Of a stretch of DNA of 64,000 nt, positions 28,780 to 38,298 are shown in pieces. Under the pieces are notes generated by a model. It was not told the origin of the DNA. It searched no databases and saw only the letters and a program-made list of their open reading frames with translations. Origin of the DNA: Desulfatirhabdium butyrativorans DSM 18734 (GTDB taxonomy: Bacteria > Desulfobacterota > Desulfobacteria > Desulfobacterales > Desulfatirhabdiaceae); the NCBI RefSeq assembly GCF_000429925.1, contig NZ_AUCU01000017.1, positions 60,206 to 124,205 of the forward strand, given 5' to 3'. Numbering within the stretch: the first letter of the stretch is position 1; every line of letters begins with the position of its first letter. The position numbers and the translations under genes were made by a program.

Positions 28780-29706
28780 TCAGTTGATCTTCGGTCGCGG
28801 ATACAATCCGGCCTTCTGCACGATTTCGGGAACCTTGTGCTCCCATTCGATGGCCATCAGGTGAATGCCGGCCACTCCCTCGATCTGTCTGAGCCGCTGG
28901 ATCATTTCCACGCAGATGGCAATGCCTTCATCCGCCTGCTTCTCCTTGGGGGTTGCGGCCATCCGGTCCACGATGTGCTGGGGAACATCCATGCCCGGGA
29001 CCTTGTTTTTCATGTAGCGGGCCATGCCGACGGTCTTGATGGGCGTCACCCCCGCCAGGATGTCGCATTTTTCATGCAGCCCGCGCTTTCGCACCCCTTC
29101 CATCCAGAGCTCGAATTTTTCGAGATTGAAAATGCACTGCGTCTGAATGAAATCTACACCCGCAGCCACTTTTTTCGCAAGCCTGGCCACCCGCAGCTCG
29201 AAGGGATCGGCGAAGGGATTGGCCGCAGCACCGATGAACATCTTTGGCGGATTTTCGATGTCCGCCCCGCCCTGAAATTTGCCCTCGTCCCGCATCTTGC
29301 GAACCATCTGGATGAACTGGATCGAATCGATGTCGTGAACTGCGGCAGCCATCGGATGGTCCCCGAATTTGGGATGATCGCCCGACAGGCAAAGCATGGT
29401 GTTGATCCCATGGGAATAGGCGCCGATGATGTCGGCTTGCATGGCCAGGCGGTTTCTGTCCCGGGTGACCATCTGCAGGATGGGATGAAGCCCGGCCTGG
29501 CGCAGAAAAAGACTTGCGCCGAAACTCGACATGCGTACCATGGCCGTCTGGTTGTCCGTTACATTGACGGCGTCCACATAGTCGCCCAACATCTTGGCTT
29601 TTTCCAGAATCTTTGCGGGAACGGCCCCTCGCGGCGGCCCGCACTCCGAGGTGACAGCAAAATTTCCGGAACGGAGAACTTTTTCGAGTACGCTTTCGGT
29701 TTTCAT
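28780..29706 (-). CDS. metF: Methylenetetrahydrofolate reductase, MetF family
   Basis: 308 residues. Family blocks are FAVTSECGPPRGAVP, VNVTDNQTAMVRMSS (flavin and folate site), MVTRDRNRLAMQADI and DFIQTQCIFNLEKFE. It reduces methylene-THF to methyl-THF in the methyl branch of the Wood-Ljungdahl pathway. Its ATG overlaps the metV stop by four bases, matching the MetVF complex in which MetV supplies an iron-sulfur zinc protein in place of an NADH domain. This is the second MetF-family gene of the operon. Confidence 0.9.
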   Translation of the reverse strand: MKTESVLEKVLRSGNFAVTSECGPPRGAVPAKILEKAKMLGDYVDAVNVTDNQTAMVRMSSFGASLFLRQAGLHPILQMVTRDRNRLAMQADIIGAYSHGINTMLCLSGDHPKFGDHPMAAAVHDIDSIQFIQMVRKMRDEGKFQGGADIENPPKMFIGAAANPFADPFELRVARLAKKVAAGVDFIQTQCIFNLEKFELWMEGVRKRGLHEKCDILAGVTPIKTVGMARYMKNKVPGMDVPQHIVDRMAATPKEKQADEGIAICVEMIQRLRQIEGVAGIHLMAIEWEHKVPEIVQKAGLYPRPKIN

Positions 29707-30371
29707 TCGGCCAGATCCTCCCTTACGATTTTTCTTGGGCCGGCCCCCCGGCCGTTTCTCCAGTCCTTCGCCGGAATAATCTCTTCATAGCGATCCGTCA
29801 GATTGAGCGCCTTGAGCCGCTCCCAGATCAGCGCCCAGGCGCAGTCCACATCCGGGCTGATCTCGCATTTTCCGCCGGTCGATCCGCCGCAGGGGCCGTT
29901 CATCAACTGTTTGGAACAGCGGGCGATGGGGCAGATGCCCGCCGTGATGCCGAGCAGGCAGTCGCCGCATCCGGCGCAACGCTCGGCCCATACCCCCTGG
30001 CGTTCGGATGCGCCCATGAATTTCGTGTTGACCGCCGGAAAAACCGGTTTGTTGCGGTAGCGCCGGGCCAGCTCCTGCACCCCGCAGCCGCAGGCCATGG
30101 ACAGAACAGCGTCCACGCCGTCGATCATAGACACGAGCTCTTCCACATATTCCGGATCACACTGGCGCTCGAGGGTATGTTCCAGAATCTGGATGGATTT
30201 TCCCTGTTTCAAAAAAGCCATCTGCAGCATCGAAGAGAGGATCCCCACTTCCTTTCGGCCTCCCGCCGAGCAGACGGTGACGCATTCATTGCATCCGACC
30301 AGTAGAATCTTCTGGAACGGCCGGATATATTCGATGATTTCATCGATGGGTTTGCGTTCAGCAGTAATCAT
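29703..30371 (-). CDS. metV: MetV, methylene-THF reductase C-terminal-domain iron-sulfur protein
   Basis: 222 residues. Cysteine clusters GCNECVTVCSAGG, ACGCGVQELA, CAGCGDCLLGITAGICPIARC and LMNGPCGGSTGGKCEI are the pattern of MetV/MTHFR-C proteins, which bind [4Fe-4S] and zinc and form the MetVF complex. Electron supply is expected from HdrA/MvhD. A ribosome site ggag lies 11 bases upstream; the gene follows mvhD with a 42-base gap. Confidence 0.9.
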   Translation of the reverse strand: MITAERKPIDEIIEYIRPFQKILLVGCNECVTVCSAGGRKEVGILSSMLQMAFLKQGKSIQILEHTLERQCDPEYVEELVSMIDGVDAVLSMACGCGVQELARRYRNKPVFPAVNTKFMGASERQGVWAERCAGCGDCLLGITAGICPIARCSKQLMNGPCGGSTGGKCEISPDVDCAWALIWERLKALNLTDRYEEIIPAKDWRNGRGAGPRKIVREDLAE

Positions 30372-30413
30372 GAGACGATTTTCTCCTTCAAAGATGGGAG
30401 CGCTCGCTCCCGG

Positions 30414-30851
30414 TTAGGCGGCATCCCGGTGCAGGGACCGGATCGGGGTCGGCCCGAGGGCCCGGATGGTTTCGGTAAATTCTTTGGCCACTTCCGCAAA
30501 CCGCTCCCCCATGCCTGCGGACATCTTGAACATCGCCAGTCGCTCGGCGCCGATGCCGATATCATCGAGCAGCTTCTGGACATAGGCCACCCGTCTGGAA
30601 GCCCGATGGTTGCCGTTTTTGAAGTGGCAGTCCCCATCGAGACATCCGGCCACATAGACCCCGTCGGCGCCTTTTTCGAAGGCCTTGAGGATGTGGATGG
30701 CATCCACCTTGCCGGAGCAGGGAACCCGGATGATCGACACATTGGCGGGATAACACAGGCGTCTGGTACCGGCCATGTCGGCTGCGGTGTAGGCGCAGTA
30801 GTGGCAGCAAAAGGCGATGATGACTGGTTCAAAGGGTTCTTGGGTTGTCAT
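30414..30851 (-). CDS. mvhD: MvhD-type hydrogenase iron-sulfur subunit
   Basis: 145 residues from MTTQEPFEPVIIAFCCHYCAY; the ATG overlaps the hdrA stop (ATGA), which rules out the longer frame to 31049. FCCHYCAYTAADMAG, RVPCSGKVD and VAGCLDGDCHFKNGN give the conserved cysteines of the [2Fe-2S] MvhD/FlpD family. It passes electrons between HdrA and a partner dehydrogenase; no hydrogenase or formate dehydrogenase gene is in the window, so the donor is elsewhere. Confidence 0.9.
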   Translation of the reverse strand: MTTQEPFEPVIIAFCCHYCAYTAADMAGTRRLCYPANVSIIRVPCSGKVDAIHILKAFEKGADGVYVAGCLDGDCHFKNGNHRASRRVAYVQKLLDDIGIGAERLAMFKMSAGMGERFAEVAKEFTETIRALGPTPIRSLHRDAA

Positions 30852-33800
30852 AGAACCATCCTTTCGAGCAATCCATTGAGTTTTTCCAGAATCTGATCGT
30901 CTTCGAACTTCATCAACTGAATGGCCTTGGCCGGGCATTCCGAGGCGCAAAGCCCGCATCCGCGGCACCGGACGGGATCGATCTGGGAGTAGCCGTCCGC
31001 ATTGATGAAGGGCACCCCGAAGGGGCATACCCGCACGCAGATAAGGCATGCCGCACAGCGTTTGGAATCGACATGGGCCACTGCAGAAGGCAGCTCCACG
31101 GTTTGTTTGCTGAGCATGGTCATGGCCCTGGAGGCTGCAGCTTCGGCCTGCGCCACACTTTCGCGGATGGACTTGGGCGCATGGGCCGTTCCGGCGACGA
31201 AAAAGCCGGGGACCGGCAGATCGACGGGCCGCAGTTTGATGTGATCCTCCAGGAAATAGCCGTCCGGCGTTCTGGGCAGGCGGAAGATGGCGGCCAGGTC
31301 CTCGGCGGATTCTTCGTCCACCGCAAAACCGGTGCTCAGTAGCAGCGCATCGGCGGAAACGGCCAGCCGGCGATCGATGATGGGGTCATGGAAGGTGACT
31401 TCCACCTGAGCGCCATCGGCGCTCACCACCGGCGGATTCTCCGGCTCATACCGCACGAAGACGACACCGGCTTCCCGGGCCTTCTGGTAGTAAAGTTCCT
31501 GGAAACCGTAGGTACGAATATCCCGGTAGAGCACGAAAATCCGGGCTTCCGGATGAACGGCCTTGATGGCGAGGGCGTTTTTGATGGCCGCCTGGCAGCA
31601 GATGCGCGAGCAGTTCGGATTGCCCGGTACGCGCGATCCGACACACTGGATCATCACCACCGTGTTCCAGTTCTTTACGCTATCCGCCTGCTCCGCCAGG
31701 ATGGCGTCGGCATCGAGCTGGGTCATTACGGCCGGATGCCGGCCCAGCAGATACAGTTCGGGCCGGTTGGGAATGGCGCCTGTAGCGAGAATGGTCGCCC
31801 CGTGGCTGATCTGGCGGTAGAACATTTTGGGCCCGATCTGGAGTCCTGTCTTGAAGAGACCCGGGATGCCGCTGTGATCGACGATGAAGGCGCTGGTGAT
31901 CACCTGGATGTTGGGGTGGTTCATGGTCTTTTCGACGAGATCCCGGACGAAGGAGGTCACATCATCGCCCTCGATGGTCTTGTGAACCAGGTTCGCCGTT
32001 CCGCCGAGCATCGATCGGCGCTCCACCAGAAACACGCGCTTCCCCTGGTCGGCCAATCGAAGACTTGCGCTCATGCCGGCCACACCGCCGCCGACCACCA
32101 GTACATCCGGATTCATTTCGAGGCGGTTGTCCGCCAGGGCGCGAGCTTTTCGCACCGAGGAAACGGCCGCCCACATCAATTGCCTGGCCTTGGCCTTGGC
32201 GTCCTGCAGATGGTCATAGTGAACCCAGGTATCCTGATCCCGCAGGTTGGCGATTTCGAGCAGGTTCCGGTTGAGGCCGGCTTTGCGGATGAGGTCCTGA
32301 AAGCGGATTTCATGGGTCCTGGGCGAGCAGCCGCCGATGACGACGCGGTTCAGCCGGTTCTCGATGATGCTCTCCCGAATGGCTTCCATGGAGCCCCGCG
32401 AGCAGCCGTGCCCGACAGCGCGGGAAACCACCACACCGGGCAGCTTGGCCGAAAATTCAGTCAGATCCGCCACGTCGATCACACCGCCGATGTTTTCGCC
32501 GCACTCACAGATGAACACCCCGATCCGCGGATCCTGACCGCTTACATCGATCTCGGGGATTTCTTCCGGGATTTCCGCTTCCGGATCCGCTGGCGCCTCG
32601 ATGGCCTTTTCCACATGGGCCGATGCCCGGCAGGCCGCGGCACTGGCCTGGATCATGGTTTCGGGGATATCCTTGGGGCTTTCGAACATCCCGCAGACAT
32701 AGACCCCGGGGCGCGATGTGGCCACCGGGTCGAAAGGCGCGCTTGCCGCAAACCCGTAAGCGTTCAGCTCGACGCCGATGGCTTTAGCCATGGCCTGAAG
32801 CTCGGCAGACGTATGGAATCCGGTGGAAAGAACGACCAGATCGAATTTGTCCTCGATCATGGCGGAGGCTTCCTCCGAAGCGTAGGTCACGGTCAGCCGG
32901 TCTTCCCCGGGTTTGCGGAAAACACTGTGGGGCCGGCTGCGCACGAAACGGATGCCATACTGGCTGCGGCATCGCTCGTAGTAAAGCTCGTAGTCTTTCC
33001 CGAAGGTTCGGATGTCCATGTAGAAAATGGCCGTATCGATGCTCTGCTGGAACCGCTCCTTGGTGACGGTGGCTTCCTTGAGGGCGAACATACAGCAGGC
33101 GCTCGAACAATAGGGCATCGCATTTTTCTGGAGCCCCCGGGAGCCCACGCACTGGATCCACGCGATTTTTTCCGGAACGCGGCCGTTCGATGGGCAGACG
33201 AGGTTGCCGCCGGTCGGCCCGGATGCGGACAGAATCCGCTCGTACTCGAGGCTTGTGACCACATCGGGATCCTTGCCGTAGCTAAAATTATCCAATACGG
33301 CCGGATCGAAAATGGAAGCGCCCATGGCCAAGACAACGGAGCCGACACCGACCTCGGCGCGCTTTTCCGTATCCTCCGGCCGGATGGCCCCTGCCGGGCA
33401 GCAGCGCGCCAGGGCTTCCCAGTCCCGCACCCTGGCCGGATCGATCCGGTAGGCCTGGGGCGTTGCCTGCGGATAGCGCATGCAGGTGGGCGCCCGGTGG
33501 TCAAGCCCCGGCTTGAATTCGACGCATTCGGGAAACTGCCTCTGGCACTCGCCGCAGGCCGTGCATAGCGCCGTATCGATGTAACGGGGCATGGTGTGGA
33601 GCGTTGCGGTAAACCGGCCGGCTTCCCCCTCCAGGGCGGCCAGTTCAGTCAGCGGCATCCATTCGATGTGGCGGCTCCGGCTCTCTTCGGAGACGTCCGG
33701 TGAAATGGTGCACAGATCGCAATTGTTGGTTGGAAACGTCCGGTCGAGCTGGGTCATCAGCCCGCCGATCGTGTTGGCCTTGTCGACCATCAGCACGTTC

Positions 33801-33904
33801 TTTCCGGATGCGGCCAGGTCCAGGGCGCAGCGGATGCCGCCGATGCCGCCGCCGACAACCAGGACGGTGCTGTTGTGTGGGGATGGATTCGATGGTTTCA
33901 TCAT
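30848..33904 (-). CDS. hdrA: Double HdrA-like flavoprotein (heterodisulfide reductase subunit A)
   Basis: 1018 residues from the ATG at 33904 (site ggaagaag). Two HdrA-like units are fused: the first FAD motif VVGGGIGG at about 16-23, the second VVGGGVAG at about 603-610. Between them IGVFICECGENIGG (from 461) is the usual HdrA start. The first unit has its own cluster CTACGECQRQFPEC (114-127), and the C-terminus carries two ferredoxin motifs CAACLICVRVCP and CRGCGLCASECP (950-990). HdrA is the flavin bifurcation site that splits electrons between ferredoxin and a low-energy acceptor. Plain HdrA is about 650 residues. Confidence 0.85.
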   Translation of the reverse strand: MMKPSNPSPHNSTVLVVGGGIGGIRCALDLAASGKNVLMVDKANTIGGLMTQLDRTFPTNNCDLCTISPDVSEESRSRHIEWMPLTELAALEGEAGRFTATLHTMPRYIDTALCTACGECQRQFPECVEFKPGLDHRAPTCMRYPQATPQAYRIDPARVRDWEALARCCPAGAIRPEDTEKRAEVGVGSVVLAMGASIFDPAVLDNFSYGKDPDVVTSLEYERILSASGPTGGNLVCPSNGRVPEKIAWIQCVGSRGLQKNAMPYCSSACCMFALKEATVTKERFQQSIDTAIFYMDIRTFGKDYELYYERCRSQYGIRFVRSRPHSVFRKPGEDRLTVTYASEEASAMIEDKFDLVVLSTGFHTSAELQAMAKAIGVELNAYGFAASAPFDPVATSRPGVYVCGMFESPKDIPETMIQASAAACRASAHVEKAIEAPADPEAEIPEEIPEIDVSGQDPRIGVFICECGENIGGVIDVADLTEFSAKLPGVVVSRAVGHGCSRGSMEAIRESIIENRLNRVVIGGCSPRTHEIRFQDLIRKAGLNRNLLEIANLRDQDTWVHYDHLQDAKAKARQLMWAAVSSVRKARALADNRLEMNPDVLVVGGGVAGMSASLRLADQGKRVFLVERRSMLGGTANLVHKTIEGDDVTSFVRDLVEKTMNHPNIQVITSAFIVDHSGIPGLFKTGLQIGPKMFYRQISHGATILATGAIPNRPELYLLGRHPAVMTQLDADAILAEQADSVKNWNTVVMIQCVGSRVPGNPNCSRICCQAAIKNALAIKAVHPEARIFVLYRDIRTYGFQELYYQKAREAGVVFVRYEPENPPVVSADGAQVEVTFHDPIIDRRLAVSADALLLSTGFAVDEESAEDLAAIFRLPRTPDGYFLEDHIKLRPVDLPVPGFFVAGTAHAPKSIRESVAQAEAAASRAMTMLSKQTVELPSAVAHVDSKRCAACLICVRVCPFGVPFINADGYSQIDPVRCRGCGLCASECPAKAIQLMKFEDDQILEKLNGLLERMVL

Positions 33905-33968
33905 CTTCTTCCAGTATGCTCTTTCCTGAAGGGTTATTTTATCGGAAGGCGAACAACGCCTGCCGGCA

Positions 33969-34841
33969 TCAGACGCCTGCTGCATCCAGAATGGCCGGAA
34001 GCCGGTGCTCCCATCCCATACTCTGGATCAGAACGCCCGAAACCGATGCTTTCAGTTGGGCAAGCGTTTCCCCGGCGATTTTGAGGCACTCCAGTTCCCG
34101 GTCGGATGCCTTGCGAATCCGGGTGATCGTCTCTTCGGACAGATGGGCGCCCGGCTCGTTGGTGGCGATGTAGCGGGCGACCGCCACGGATTTGATCAGG
34201 AAAACGGTGGCGATGACCGGAACCCCGAGACTTTTGAGTTGCCGTGCGACCGGCTCGAACCGTTTGGCGTCAAAAACAGGCTGGGTGACGATAAAGGCCG
34301 CGCCGCTCTGAATTTTCGTCCGGGCCATTTCCATCTCCCGCTCCAGGGCGGCGTCGTCTGCAACGGCAGGCAGCATGCATCCCACAATCCATTCCGGCGC
34401 GCCATCGAGATCGAAACCCGCCAGATCCTTTCCGGCCTTCAGTTGGGCCGCGCACCGCAGGATCCCGATTTCATCGAGATCGTTCACGGTTTTGGCATCG
34501 CGATGGTCGCTGTTGGCCATCGCCTCGCCATTGACCACGAGGATGCCGGAAACCCCCAGCACCTGAGCGGCAAGCAGGTCTCCCTGGATGGCCAGTCGGT
34601 TGCGGTCTCTACCGTAAGCCGTGATGAACGGATCGATGCCGGCCTGTTTCAGGGCGGCCGCTCCGCCGAGGGCGCTCAGGCGCATGACGCCATTGTCCAT
34701 GTCCGGCACCACGACTGCATCCACCCGGCCCTTGATGTGTCGGGCGTCGGTCATGAAGCGGGAAATGTCCACGCCCTTGGGGGTGTTCATCTCGGCCAGC
34801 ACCACAAATTTACCGGTTTTGAAAGCTTGTACGATATTCAT
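33969..34841 (-). CDS. metF: MetF-family methylenetetrahydrofolate reductase (second copy)
   Basis: 290 residues. FVVLAEMNTPKGVDIS, VVVPDMDNGVMRLSALG, TAYGRDRNRLAIQGDLL and FIVTQPVFDAKRFEPVA follow the MetF fold. It is clearly diverged from the MetF at 28780 and lacks an adjacent second MetV, so the two may act on different folate or acceptor states or form a mixed complex. It sits between hdrCB and hdrA, 64 bases before hdrA. Confidence 0.85.
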   Translation of the reverse strand: MNIVQAFKTGKFVVLAEMNTPKGVDISRFMTDARHIKGRVDAVVVPDMDNGVMRLSALGGAAALKQAGIDPFITAYGRDRNRLAIQGDLLAAQVLGVSGILVVNGEAMANSDHRDAKTVNDLDEIGILRCAAQLKAGKDLAGFDLDGAPEWIVGCMLPAVADDAALEREMEMARTKIQSGAAFIVTQPVFDAKRFEPVARQLKSLGVPVIATVFLIKSVAVARYIATNEPGAHLSEETITRIRKASDRELECLKIAGETLAQLKASVSGVLIQSMGWEHRLPAILDAAGV

Positions 34842-34857
34842 CGTCTTTCCTTATCAT

Positions 34858-34925
34858 GAAGAAGTCAGAAGTCAGGAGCCAGAAGTCAGGAAAACGGCTG
34901 CTGGCTCCACCTTGAAAATGGTTCC
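34858..34925 (+). repeat. Heptamer repeat (GTCAGAA family) with partial module, inside the operon
   Basis: Units agaagtcagaagtcaggag are followed by a shortened version of the module seen at 509-590 (acggctgctggctcc). It fills most of the 146-base gap between hdrCB and metF. It carries no gene. Confidence 0.7.
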
Positions 34926-34987
34926 CTGTCATCCTGCAGAAGCGGGCCTTCGCCTGCTACCCAGAATGCCGCGCCAGGCTTCGGCGC

Positions 34988-36307
34988 TTATTCCCCGGAT
35001 TCCGGATGGAACACATCGACATCCTGCAGTTCCTCACCGAGATAGGCCCGCTCTTTGGGTCCCAGTATCCCGAGCGAGAGACAGATCAGCGTCCACAAAT
35101 GCACCGTATGGTATCCGCCATCGAAATGGTCGTTCAGATCGTGGATCTGGCTGTGGCAGTTGTGGCAGGGTGCGATACAATACGTCGCACCTGTCGCCTT
35201 GATCTGATCGAATTTCAATTTCCCGTAAGCATGCCGGGCTTCCGTATATCCGGACTGGAGATATCCCCCCCCTCCGCCGCAGCAGTAGTTGTTGGAACGG
35301 TTCGGCTGCATGTCGATGAAGTTCTCTTCGCCGACAACCGCCTTCACCACAAACCGCAGGTCTTCCGCAACGGGGTCACCGAAGCTCTTGCGGACAAGCT
35401 GGCACGGATCCTGAACCGTGAACTTGATCCGGCGCTCCCGGTTCCATTCGCTGCTGACCTTGAGTTTGCCTTCCCGAATCCACTGCGCATAGTATTGAAT
35501 GATGCTCTTGATCTCGAAACGGGCTTCGATGCCGAATTTCTGCAGTCCGGACCGGACCGCGAACAGTTCGTGCCCTCACTCCGTATTGAGCCAGACGCGG
35601 CAGCCCAGGTCGTGAACGGCCTTGGCCTTCACTTCGACGATGTGTTTCCAGCTTTCGTCATCGGCCAGAAACATGCAGTAGTTTTCCGCAGCCCATCCCT
35701 TGGTGCCGTAAGTCCAGTCGGCGCCCACCAGGTGCAGGATCTTCCACAGCGGCACCATCTCATCGGGCTCCGTCACCGGTTCGCGGGAATTCTGGTTCAG
35801 AAAGAACATCGCCCCTTCCTTGTTGATCGGGGCTTCCATCTCGGCAAATTCGGGTTGGGACTCCCGATATTCTTCGAGTACGTCGTTCACCACGAATTCG
35901 AAATCCTCTTCGCTGGCGCCCATGGCGCTGCAGGAATCACTCTTCAAGGCCATGTCGCAGGAGCCGAGAATCCCTTTGGGACGCTGGTCCCGCGGGGTGA
36001 GCTGCCGGGCATAGAAGACGAGCTGGGGGATGTTGATCTTCATGGGGCAGACATAGATGCAGCGCTGGCACATCGAGCACATCCAGGGCCATTTCGATTC
36101 GACGATGGCCTCATCCATGCCGAGTGCGGCCATGCGGAGAAATTTTCTCGGGTCCATGCCTTCGAGCCCGGTCGCCGGGCATCCGGAAGAACAGGCCCCG
36201 CAGGTCAGACACAGGTCGAGGTTGCCACCTTCCGGAAGCAAGGCCTTCACCTTGTCGAGGAATCTGCTGCTGGATCTGGTTGGAATGCGAATGGGTTCTG
36301 CTGTCAT
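34988..36307 (-). CDS. HdrC-HdrB (HdrD/DsrK-like) iron-sulfur reductase, probable selenoprotein
   Basis: 439 residues if the in-frame TGA at 35576-35578 is read as selenocysteine (residue 244). N-terminal HdrC part: two [4Fe-4S] motifs, Cys33/36/39/43 and Cys77/80/83/87. C-terminal HdrB part: CCG region with Cys342-Cys343 and CxxxCxxC at 377-384. Around the TGA the text is NTE-U-GHELF, where relatives normally have NTECGHE, so Sec replaces a conserved cysteine. Both sides stay in one frame and are conserved in character. A SECIS-like hairpin follows. The protein should reduce a disulfide or similar acceptor with electrons from HdrA. Its start overlaps the TusA-like stop. Confidence 0.85.
35542..35578 (-). 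promoter_or_regulatory. SECIS-like hairpin downstream of in-frame UGA
   Basis: After UGA, 15 bases lead into a 7-bp stem gcggtcc / ggactgc with a 5-base loop ggtcc; three more base pairs (ttc with gaa) lie just below. The loop starts with GGU, as in the E. coli formate dehydrogenase SECIS, and the distance from UGA to loop (about 22 bases) falls within the bacterial range. SelB binding is inferred. Confidence 0.7.
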
Positions 36308-36582
36308 GAATCTTTCCTTTTGTAAGGTTTTGGAAGTGTTTCTTCTTTCTGGAGCCGAAGAATCGTCATGTCCATTTCCTCGGATAGCGGTTCCACCGAA
36401 ACGATCGAATAGGATGTTTTCGGGAGCACCCGCAGCAAATCCCGCTGCATTTCCGGGTCGCATCCCATGACCTGCATGATTTGTTTCGGTTTCAGGCGCT
36501 GGAAGGCAAGGGATACCTTGAGAATGGAAAAGGGTGCGATGATTCCCCGAATATCCAGCGTACAATCGGCTTTTCGTTTCAA
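36304..36582 (-). CDS. TusA/SirA-like protein lacking the catalytic cysteine
   Basis: 92 residues from a TTG start with a strong site (ggagagg) 8 bases upstream; the ATG at 36771 would cross the promoter and is rejected. The opening ADCTLDIRGIIAPFSILKVSL is the TusA fold, but the hallmark CPxP is here APFS, so the persulfide-carrying cysteine is gone. The rest (VMGCDPEMQRDLLRVLPK) is intact. TusA proteins carry sulfur; this one cannot in the usual way and may be a structural subunit. It is first in the redox operon, overlapping hdrCB. Confidence 0.8.
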   Translation of the reverse strand: MKRKADCTLDIRGIIAPFSILKVSLAFQRLKPKQIMQVMGCDPEMQRDLLRVLPKTSYSIVSVEPLSEEMDMTILRLQKEETLPKPYKRKDS

Positions 36583-36621
36583 CGTCGGTTTCCTCTCCTG
36601 AAGTGCCAGGCGCCGAATTAA

Positions 36622-36637
36622 AGCAAATGGTATGCCA
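36622..36637 (-). promoter_or_regulatory. Sigma-54 promoter (-24/-12)
   Basis: On the minus strand the sequence TGGCAT-accat-TTGCT fits the sigma-54 consensus TGGCAC-N5-TTGCA with one mismatch in each box. The -12 box lies about 40 bases before the TTG start of the TusA-like gene. A sigma-54 activator gene starts divergently at 36787. Confidence 0.75.
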
Positions 36638-36786
36638 ATCGGCAAAAAAAGAAAGAATTGCTGGATATTCAGAAGAATCGAATAGATAGAGACCGGTATG
36701 CTCTGCATGGTCCGAATGGCTTGCCCGAAAAGGATAAAGTTGATAAAGTGATCGCCTTTTACAGATGTCAAGTGGGTTGAACAGGG

Positions 36787-38298
36787 TTGATCACCGGGAG
36801 CAGCAGTCAGGAGTCGGAAGACAGACGGCAGGAGACAGAAGCGGTTGCCACGTGTTTCGAAAAGGCGCCTGCTTTGTCTGAGTGGATGGAATCAAGGCGG
36901 GGTGTGGTGGATCAGGAACTCGATCAATATTGGAAAACGGTGTTCAACACGATTCGGGATGGCATTATGATCGTCAATGTGGAAGGGACGATCGTTTCGG
37001 TGAATCAGGCGCTTCAGACCATGACCGGATACCATCGGGACGAGCTGATCGGAAAACCCTGCCACATCATCGGCTGTGATGTCTGCCGCAAGCGATCCGG
37101 ATCGAGCGGCGGGTTTTCCTGCGATTTGTTCCAGTTCGGCGAAATCCGGGTGCGACGCTGCCTGCTGGCCACAAAAGCCGGCGGGATGCTGCACGCCCTG
37201 CAAAACGCCTCCCTGCTGAAGGATCGGGACGGCATGGTGATCGGCGCCGTCGGAACCTATACCGACATTTCCGAGCTGACCCAGAAGGACAACCAGCTCG
37301 AAGCGTTCCGGAAGGAGCTCCAGGCAAGCGATCAGTTCCACGGGATCATCGGCGCAACGCCGATCATGCGGCAGGTATTCGATCTCATCGAAAATGCAGC
37401 CCTCTCCGATGCGCCCGTCATCATTTACGGCGAAAGCGGTGTCGGCAAGGAACTGGCGGCGCAGGCCGTCCATGAAATCGGGGAACGCCGGAAAGGGGCT
37501 TTCGTCAAGGTCAATTGTGCAAGCCTCACCGACTCCCTGCTGGAGAGCGAGCTCTTCGGGCATGTGAAAGGGGCCTATACGGGTGCGATCCGGGACCGGG
37601 TCGGCCGTTTTGAGAAGGCTTCAGGCGGCGACATCTTCCTCGATGAAATCGGGGACCTGCCGATGACCACGCAGGTCAAGCTCTTGCGGGTTCTCGAAGA
37701 AAAAGTGATCGAGCGGGTCGGATCGAGCTCACCCGTACCGGTCGATGTCCGCATCATTTCGGCGACCAACTGGGATCTGGCCCGCCTGGTCGATCAGGGA
37801 AAATTCCGCAAGGACCTGTTTTTCCGGATCAACGTCATTCCCATCCACCTGCCGCCCCTCCGGGACAGGCTTGCCGACGTGCCGCTGCTGGCGGAAGCCT
37901 TTTTCCGCAAGATTCGCCTGAAAAGCGGCAAACCCATCCAGGGGATCGGCAACCAGACCATGGCGGCGCTCATGAACTATTCCTGGCCCGGAAACGTCCG
38001 GGAACTCAAGAGCGCCTTCGAGTATGCCTTTGTCGTTTGCCACGACGAGTTCATCCAGCCACACCACTTGCCACCCGGTGTCGTCGGATCGGCCAGCGAG
38101 CCAGCCCCTACCTTCACCGCCCGATCCTTCAACATGCGTGAGATCGAAAAACAGGAATTGATCGAAGCCCTGGAAAAGACCGGCTACAACCAGTCCAAAG
38201 CTGCGGAAATGCTCGGGGTCTCCCGCGTGACGATCTACAACCGGATGAAACGCTTCGGGGTCGTGCCCAAAAGAGGACTCGAGGTGATCGGCGGTTAA
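36787..38298 (+). CDS. PAS-domain sigma-54-dependent transcription activator
   Basis: About 503 residues from a TTG at 36787, or 470 from the ATG at 36886; the first ~30 residues are coded by repeat-like sequence, so the later start is plausible. Domains: PAS with cysteine-rich insert (CHIIGCDVCRK, FSCDLF, RRCLLA), AAA+ with Walker A GESGVGKE, the sigma-54 contact loop GAYTGA, Walker B IFLDEIGDL, arginine-finger region FRKDLFFRINVI, and a Fis-type HTH (NQSKAAEMLGVSRVTIYNRMK). It faces away from the redox operon and is the likely activator of its promoter. Confidence 0.9.
   Translation: MITGSSSQESEDRRQETEAVATCFEKAPALSEWMESRRGVVDQELDQYWKTVFNTIRDGIMIVNVEGTIVSVNQALQTMTGYHRDELIGKPCHIIGCDVCRKRSGSSGGFSCDLFQFGEIRVRRCLLATKAGGMLHALQNASLLKDRDGMVIGAVGTYTDISELTQKDNQLEAFRKELQASDQFHGIIGATPIMRQVFDLIENAALSDAPVIIYGESGVGKELAAQAVHEIGERRKGAFVKVNCASLTDSLLESELFGHVKGAYTGAIRDRVGRFEKASGGDIFLDEIGDLPMTTQVKLLRVLEEKVIERVGSSSPVPVDVRIISATNWDLARLVDQGKFRKDLFFRINVIPIHLPPLRDRLADVPLLAEAFFRKIRLKSGKPIQGIGNQTMAALMNYSWPGNVRELKSAFEYAFVVCHDEFIQPHHLPPGVVGSASEPAPTFTARSFNMREIEKQELIEALEKTGYNQSKAAEMLGVSRVTIYNRMKRFGVVPKRGLEVIGG
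36803..36842 (+). repeat. Degenerate heptamer repeat at start of activator gene
   Basis: Units cagtcagg, agtcgga, agacaga and ggagacagaag in 7-base steps belong to the GTCAGAA family. They lie within the extended N-terminus of the activator frame. Confidence 0.5.

Follow-up and report, generated by a model that had tools for sequence, protein, structure and literature searches.

A predicted selenocysteine in an HdrC-HdrB fusion protein encoded with methylenetetrahydrofolate reductase genes in Desulfatirhabdium butyrativorans

A gene for an HdrC-HdrB fusion protein in Desulfatirhabdium butyrativorans DSM 18734 contains an in-frame UGA (35578-35576, minus strand) that is almost certainly decoded as selenocysteine (Sec). 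Taking the evidence as a whole, we consider it likely that the product, HdrCB(U), is a subunit of an Hdr-type methylenetetrahydrofolate reductase in which a selenolate would sit beside a noncubane iron-sulfur cluster. The gene cluster is one for the folate step of one-carbon metabolism, and the organism is related to sulfate-reducing bacteria. Coordinates are those of the window, by which we mean the whole 64,000-nucleotide stretch of DNA that was analysed.

Results

The reading frame and its internal TGA

The gene lies at 34988-36307 on the minus strand. Its 440 codons are interrupted by one stop alone, the TGA of codon 244 (35576-35578) in the context NTE-U-GHELF, and end in TAA; read through, the frame would specify 439 amino acids with Sec at position 244, a length that corresponds to roughly 49 kDa. 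An earlier model reading of the letters (the sequence-only reading) had proposed that a TGA interrupts a 440-codon minus-strand frame, and the translation bears this out. From 436 related stretches in one collection, the best 80 of the 436 loci were retained, all of them TGA-bearing; together with a second copy from locus L113, two further copies in the D. butyrativorans genome (L147 and L148) and the window itself, these made a set of 84 copies to which several genomes contribute two or three. Exactly one in-frame TGA was present in each of the 84 copies (the best 80 of 436 loci plus four), always in the same column, and E-U-G-H was invariant throughout that set. When 297 genomes of the phylum were sampled, the TGA was carried by every one of the top 19 rows, of which three came from the organism's own genome; the highest-ranked row lacking it was at 68% identity. 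Three close Sec copies of HdrCB are found in the D. butyrativorans genome, and the cultured relatives Desulfospira joergensenii DSM 10085 and Desulfatitalea alkaliphila each have a copy. A further in-frame stop interrupts a few sequences in a separate list of relatives, G046, G161 and G126 among them.

If the TGA were a real stop, the gene would be a pseudogene or would be expressed as two polypeptides, and an in-frame GTG at 35350 could begin a downstream piece of 120 amino acids. A nonsense mutation is made extremely improbable by the presence of this TGA in every one of the 84 copies (the best 80 of 436 loci plus four), which come from many genomes, by the intact CCG domain downstream and by the SECIS covariation and Sec genes described below; the initial preference for Sec over nonsense is upheld on these grounds.

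The SECIS hairpin

Bacterial SECIS elements are hairpins that lie shortly downstream of the UGA and have a G in the apical loop. A hairpin with a 7-bp stem and a GGUCC loop occupies 35542-35560 on the minus strand (5' arm GCGGUCC, 35560-35554; loop GGUCC, 35553-35549; 3' arm GGACUGC, 35548-35542), and its 5' arm starts 15 nt past the TGA, as the sequence-only reading had described. The minimum-energy fold has one extra pair, closing a 3-nt loop. Taken by itself, the folding energy discriminates poorly (z = -2.2, with 9 of 200 shuffles folding equally well). At least six of the seven stem pairs form in 65 of 66 distinct TGA+39 sequences and all seven in 31 of the 66; the mean of 6.45 pairs compares with 4.05 ± 0.14 of seven (maximum 4.42) after random synonymous recoding with the codon use of the family (200 runs). 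Among 385 scored codons, +7, +8, +10 and +11 after the TGA have the least synonymous freedom, and codons +6 to +14 form the most synonymously constrained nine-codon interval of the gene.

Covariation was scored in 21 sequences, hand-picked for their diversity; L047 and L048 lie outside this set, and their letters fit the stem only with a one-base shift. In these 21 diverse sequences 92.5% of stem cells are paired, as against 14-39% when the arms are slid, and both sides have changed in 16 cells, which fall in four of the seven stem pairs. None of 500 shuffles matched the percentage paired, the 16 doubly changed cells or the covariation score; two of the five covariation measures lay within what shuffling gives, namely doubly changed pairs (67/500) and further pair types (163/500). 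The stems of L175 and L176 have AACCC/GGGUU in place of AGUCC/GGACU, and the encoded residues differ. The hairpin is under selection and has been kept by compensatory changes.

Selenocysteine machinery

The genome (4.48 Mb in 73 contigs, 97% complete) encodes a tRNA-Sec with anticodon UCA (77.1 bits against an Rfam cut-off of 47), SelA (608 bits; cut-off 268), SelB (356 bits; cut-off 242) and SelD (375 bits; cut-off 125), the last of which carries its own UGA. All four of the genes that the sequence-only reading had proposed to look for (selA, selB, selC and selD) are therefore present. Genome-wide reassignment of UGA to Trp or Cys would also turn the codon into sense, and the TGA does sit where relatives have Cys; nothing else favours this explanation. 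Both the tRNA-Sec(UCA), SelA, SelB and SelD of this genome and the conservation of the hairpin in genes with UGA but not in those with Cys weigh against it, leaving reassignment with next to no probability.

Contigs C12 and C13 have further SelB-like matches at their ends (191 bits), which were considered as extra SelB genes and set aside as EF-Tu-like. The C12 match was so assigned because it adjoins tRNA genes for Thr-Gly-Tyr-Thr, which we take to be the usual setting of the EF-Tu gene; the match on C13, where no tRNA was found, and one in another genome (G393:C501) were dismissed by likeness only. In one other genus of the phylum, a tRNA-Sec and HdrCB relatives containing a UGA occur in each of the genomes G393, G429 and G464; two of the three have a UGA-bearing SelD, and SelB exceeds its cut-off in two. 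SelA over cut-off (TIGR00474, PF03841) was found in none of these three genomes, which are 62-79% complete; the gene may lie on missing contigs, or there may be another route to Sec-tRNA. At L184 (G393:C163, 443-3838) one strand carries, in this order, an hdrCB-like Cys gene, a divergent second tRNA-Sec (UCA; 58 bits) and a SelB gene (315 bits), and the same order recurs in the same genus at L187 (G464:C258), where SelB is a partial match of 272 bits.

Exchange of Sec and Cys among relatives

Twenty relatives at 31-72% identity were fetched, drawn from the 297-genome listing mostly for being without the TGA. Column 244 holds Cys in 15 and Sec in five, that is, one or the other in 20 of 20, the pattern that the alignment had been expected to give if the codon specifies Sec. 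With the register unchanged, the stem forms no more than five of its seven pairs in any of the 15 Cys relatives and six or seven in all five Sec relatives. Two remote relatives, L053 (27%) and L054 (23%), gave no clean alignment at this column. A 54-row tree (35 Sec and 19 Cys, using 28 of the 84 family copies and leaving out L050, L053 and L054) has seven changes of state between Sec and Cys, at least five of them forced by well-supported (starred) branches; some of its branches are long and its deep placements are unsure. One Cys paralog, L164, is encoded in the D. butyrativorans genome itself and is 64% identical to HdrCB(U); natural Cys paralogs such as this permit a direct comparison of Sec with Cys. 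The same genome also has a fifth, distant relative, L174 (G000:C69), at 37-38% identity, with Sec and its own SECIS-like stem of six out of seven pairs.

Domains, fold and cluster ligands

HdrCB(U) is predicted to be a soluble HdrC-HdrB fusion with an EtfD/HdrB fold. Residues 30-91 (36035-36220, minus strand) form an HdrC-like 2x[4Fe-4S] domain that matches Pfam Fer4_8/Fer4_17 and HdrC chains in the PDB. Residues 297-388 (35144-35419, minus strand) form a C-terminal CCG domain, the only one that Pfam CCG matches, with the noncubane cysteines C302, C342, C343, C381 and C384; these five and H246 are invariant in all 84 copies (the best 80 of 436 loci plus four). The predicted structure (pLDDT 86, pTM 0.88) has its best fold match in EtfD of Mycobacterium smegmatis (Z 26.1, rmsd 3.0, 377 residues), and HdrB chains match with Z of about 21 over about 250 residues. 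For this frequent selenoprotein of the Desulfobacterota, no NCBIfam model scored above its cut-off. DsrK, HmcF and TmcB are sequence relatives whose models match far below the NCBI cut-offs (106.6 against 400, 165.6 against 750 and 160.7 against 735, respectively), and identity with any of the three was rejected; no solved DsrK structure appeared in the PDB sequence or fold match lists for HdrCB(U). The sequence-only reading had spoken of an HdrCB/DsrK-like reductase, of which the HdrC-HdrB fusion stands and the DsrK assignment falls with the failed cut-off.

In a profile alignment to EtfD, residues 244, 246 and 247 fall opposite Cys581, His583 and Cys584, respectively. The accessible text on EtfD assigns Cys503, 538, 581 and 584 as ligands to a linear [3Fe-4S] cluster and Cys637, 672, 673, 709 and 712, together with His583, to a noncubane [4Fe-4S] cluster (PMC13083937). 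Since C302, C342, C343, C381, C384 and H246 align with the ligands of the latter, the noncubane site of HdrCB(U) appears to be complete. Among the ligands of the linear cluster, the alignment leaves only position 244, as Sec, and Sec244 would stand two residues before His246, the counterpart of the histidine that caps the noncubane cluster in EtfD. Two complete CCG cysteine motifs, as in an HdrB with two noncubane clusters, were not found in HdrCB(U), whose N-terminal ligands are missing except at residue 244. Going by the EtfD alignment, there is a good likelihood that Sec244 lies beside the noncubane cluster.

The gene cluster

On the minus strand the gene order is tusA-like, hdrCB(U), metF1, hdrA, mvhD, metV and metF2. 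Downstream of hdrCB(U) are metF1, which encodes a methylenetetrahydrofolate reductase-like protein (33969-34841; Pfam MTHFR), and hdrA (30848-33985), whose 1045-amino-acid product has two flavin domains and ferredoxin domains. These are followed by mvhD (30414-30851; Pfam FlpD, with the VhuD model below its cut-off), the start of which was placed at an ATG overlapping the hdrA stop, the mechanical open reading frame extending to 31049. The last two genes are metV (29703-30371; MTHFR C-terminal, DUF5981) and metF2 (28780-29706), a second MTHFR-like gene whose product is 30% identical to that of metF1. ATGA start/stop overlaps link tusA to hdrCB and hdrA to mvhD. No TGA or Sec was found in the HdrA or MvhD of the cluster, both frames being open. 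With metV, metF, hdrA, hdrB/C and mvhD in one cluster, the gene set of an Hdr-type methylenetetrahydrofolate reductase is present, and HdrCB(U) probably works with the MetF, MetV, HdrA and MvhD products, presumably in a complex.

The operon opens with a gene (36304-36771, minus strand) whose stop overlaps the start of hdrCB. Its TusA-like product (30.8 bits with Pfam TusA; cut-off 28.6) is extended at the N terminus. As TusA proteins carry sulfur, a persulfide partner for HdrCB is conceivable. On the plus strand, a divergent gene for a PAS/sigma-54 activator (36787-38298) has 60-70% identical neighbours in L110, L118, L119, L129 and L144 and is a probable regulator of the cluster.

Neighbourhoods were counted at the 40 of the 80 named loci with at least 5 kb on either side, and partners were sought within 6.5 kb on the same strand. 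HdrA, MvhD, MetV and MetF were all nearby at 18 of the 40, none of the four at 19 and some of them at three; given the 19 loci without any of these partner genes, the subunit is not tied to MetF. The gene order of the window recurs in L110, L118 (cut by a contig end), L119, L129 and L144, and the five together make up every locus whose MetF shares at least 50% identity with the metF1 product. Their HdrCB belongs to the VTF subtype and that of the window cluster (28780-38298) to the ELF subtype, and the two are separated on the tree. D. butyrativorans also has an orphan VTF copy at another place in its genome (L148, 9549-10865). Comparison of the six clusters suggests that the Sec subunit of this one may have been swapped for a paralog. 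In a Desulfamplus MAG, two Sec hdrCB genes, one per subtype, stand in tandem (L113, 1102-2418 and 2837-4153).

Discussion

SelB and tRNA-Sec almost certainly insert Sec at UGA 35578-35576 under the direction of the hairpin at 35560-35542. We propose that HdrCB(U), as the fused HdrC-HdrB subunit, would carry electrons into or out of an Hdr-type methylenetetrahydrofolate reductase composed of MetF1-HdrA-MvhD-MetV-MetF2. Electrons from or to HdrA would pass via the two HdrC-like cubanes to the noncubane [4Fe-4S] cluster of the C-terminal CCG domain. Its N-terminal counterpart would have lost its own cluster ligands, the Sec244 position excepted, and the Sec244 selenolate beside the noncubane cluster would act as a second sulfur/selenium-capturing centre. 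With electrons supplied by the cluster, this centre could make and break a selenosulfide with DsrC or some other dithiol protein as its thiol/disulfide partner. We offer this selenosulfide chemistry at Sec244, and the choice of redox partner, as a tentative suggestion. A further idea, that in this HdrCB branch Sec244 replaces a whole lost noncubane cluster of the Hdr active site and creates, together with the noncubane cluster that is left, a mixed Se/FeS two-site disulfide-cleaving centre in a bifurcating methylenetetrahydrofolate reductase, is doubtful.

Another explanation, and a substantial possibility, is that Sec244 has a structural or tuning role: the selenolate or His246 would bind the noncubane cluster and shift its potential, and the subunit would be an electron wire with no disulfide substrate. 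Sec is usually retained for catalytic redox chemistry, which counts against such a role, as does the alignment of residue 244 with a ligand of the other EtfD cluster and not of the noncubane one. EtfD is nonetheless the closest match by both fold and alignment, and its His583, which aligns with His246, ligates a noncubane cluster that is called non-catalytic in the accessible text, a property ascribed there to the capping histidine (PMC13083937); by the same reasoning, a capping histidine would argue against disulfide chemistry in HdrCB(U).

Several published systems resemble HdrCB(U) or its gene cluster. A 2006 survey, as far as its available text goes, counted five members in an Fe-S oxidoreductase (GlpC) family of selenoproteins and placed some of these in deltaproteobacterial hdrA-frhD operons (PMC1794560). 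Fe-S oxidoreductase-like GlpC is elsewhere equated with COG0247 (accessible portion of PMC9312934), and the available sections of a 2026 review give its Sec motif as UGH and name GlpC among selenoprotein families whose functions are largely uncharacterized (PMC13188914). HdrCB(U) resembles the GlpC (COG0247) selenoproteins, as they are described in these excerpts, in its UGH motif, in being a CCG Fe-S protein, in its occurrence in Deltaproteobacteria and in the proximity of hdrA and mvhD/frhD, which some of them share; motif, domain and setting suggest that it belongs to this family. The published operon, as given there, is glpC-hdrA-frhD-frhG-frhA, whereas the neighbours in the window are metF, hdrA, mvhD, metV and metF; hdrA and the frhD-like mvhD are thus present, and frhG and frhA are not among the neighbours identified. 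An Fe-S oxidoreductase and a heterodisulfide reductase were listed in 2021 among the selenoproteins of a marine deltaproteobacterial genome (PMC8318568, accessible text). HdrD4 of Desulfobacterium autotrophicum HRM2, HdrCB-like and named as a Sec protein in 2009, is likewise a soluble HdrC-HdrB fusion with Sec; the available part of that paper does not state the position of the Sec or any linkage to metF (PMC2702500).

As a Sec GlpC family and a Sec HdrD4 have already been published, this kind of selenoprotein is not new. For a Sec HdrCB tied to metF, we found no report in the searchable literature, supplementary files apart, and the papers searched contained neither a MetF-HdrA-MvhD-MetV-MetF cluster with a Sec subunit nor a cluster whose HdrCB subtype is unlike that of five sister clusters. 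The MetVF-HdrCBA-MvhD systems of Sporomusa ovata and Moorella thermoacetica have, according to the accessible text, the same set of subunits in one cluster, but with HdrB and HdrC separate; in the window the two make up one Sec-containing fusion, and a second metF comes at the end of the cluster (PMC9430772). The word selenocysteine is absent from the main text of that paper as available, which reports interactions of the Sporomusa proteins by pulldown and no purification of a tight complex (PMC9430772). A metF-HdrABC association has also been predicted in Seep-SRB1g (PMC10553843, available text). Finally, EtfD of M. smegmatis (PDB 9ojn) shares with HdrCB(U) the aligned CxH motif and all ligands of the second cluster, but is membrane-bound, has Cys in place of Sec and keeps the linear [3Fe-4S] cluster, the other ligands of which HdrCB(U) lacks. 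Together with this alignment, the place of HdrCB(U) in a methylenetetrahydrofolate reductase cluster provides both a testable site and a testable pathway for the protein.
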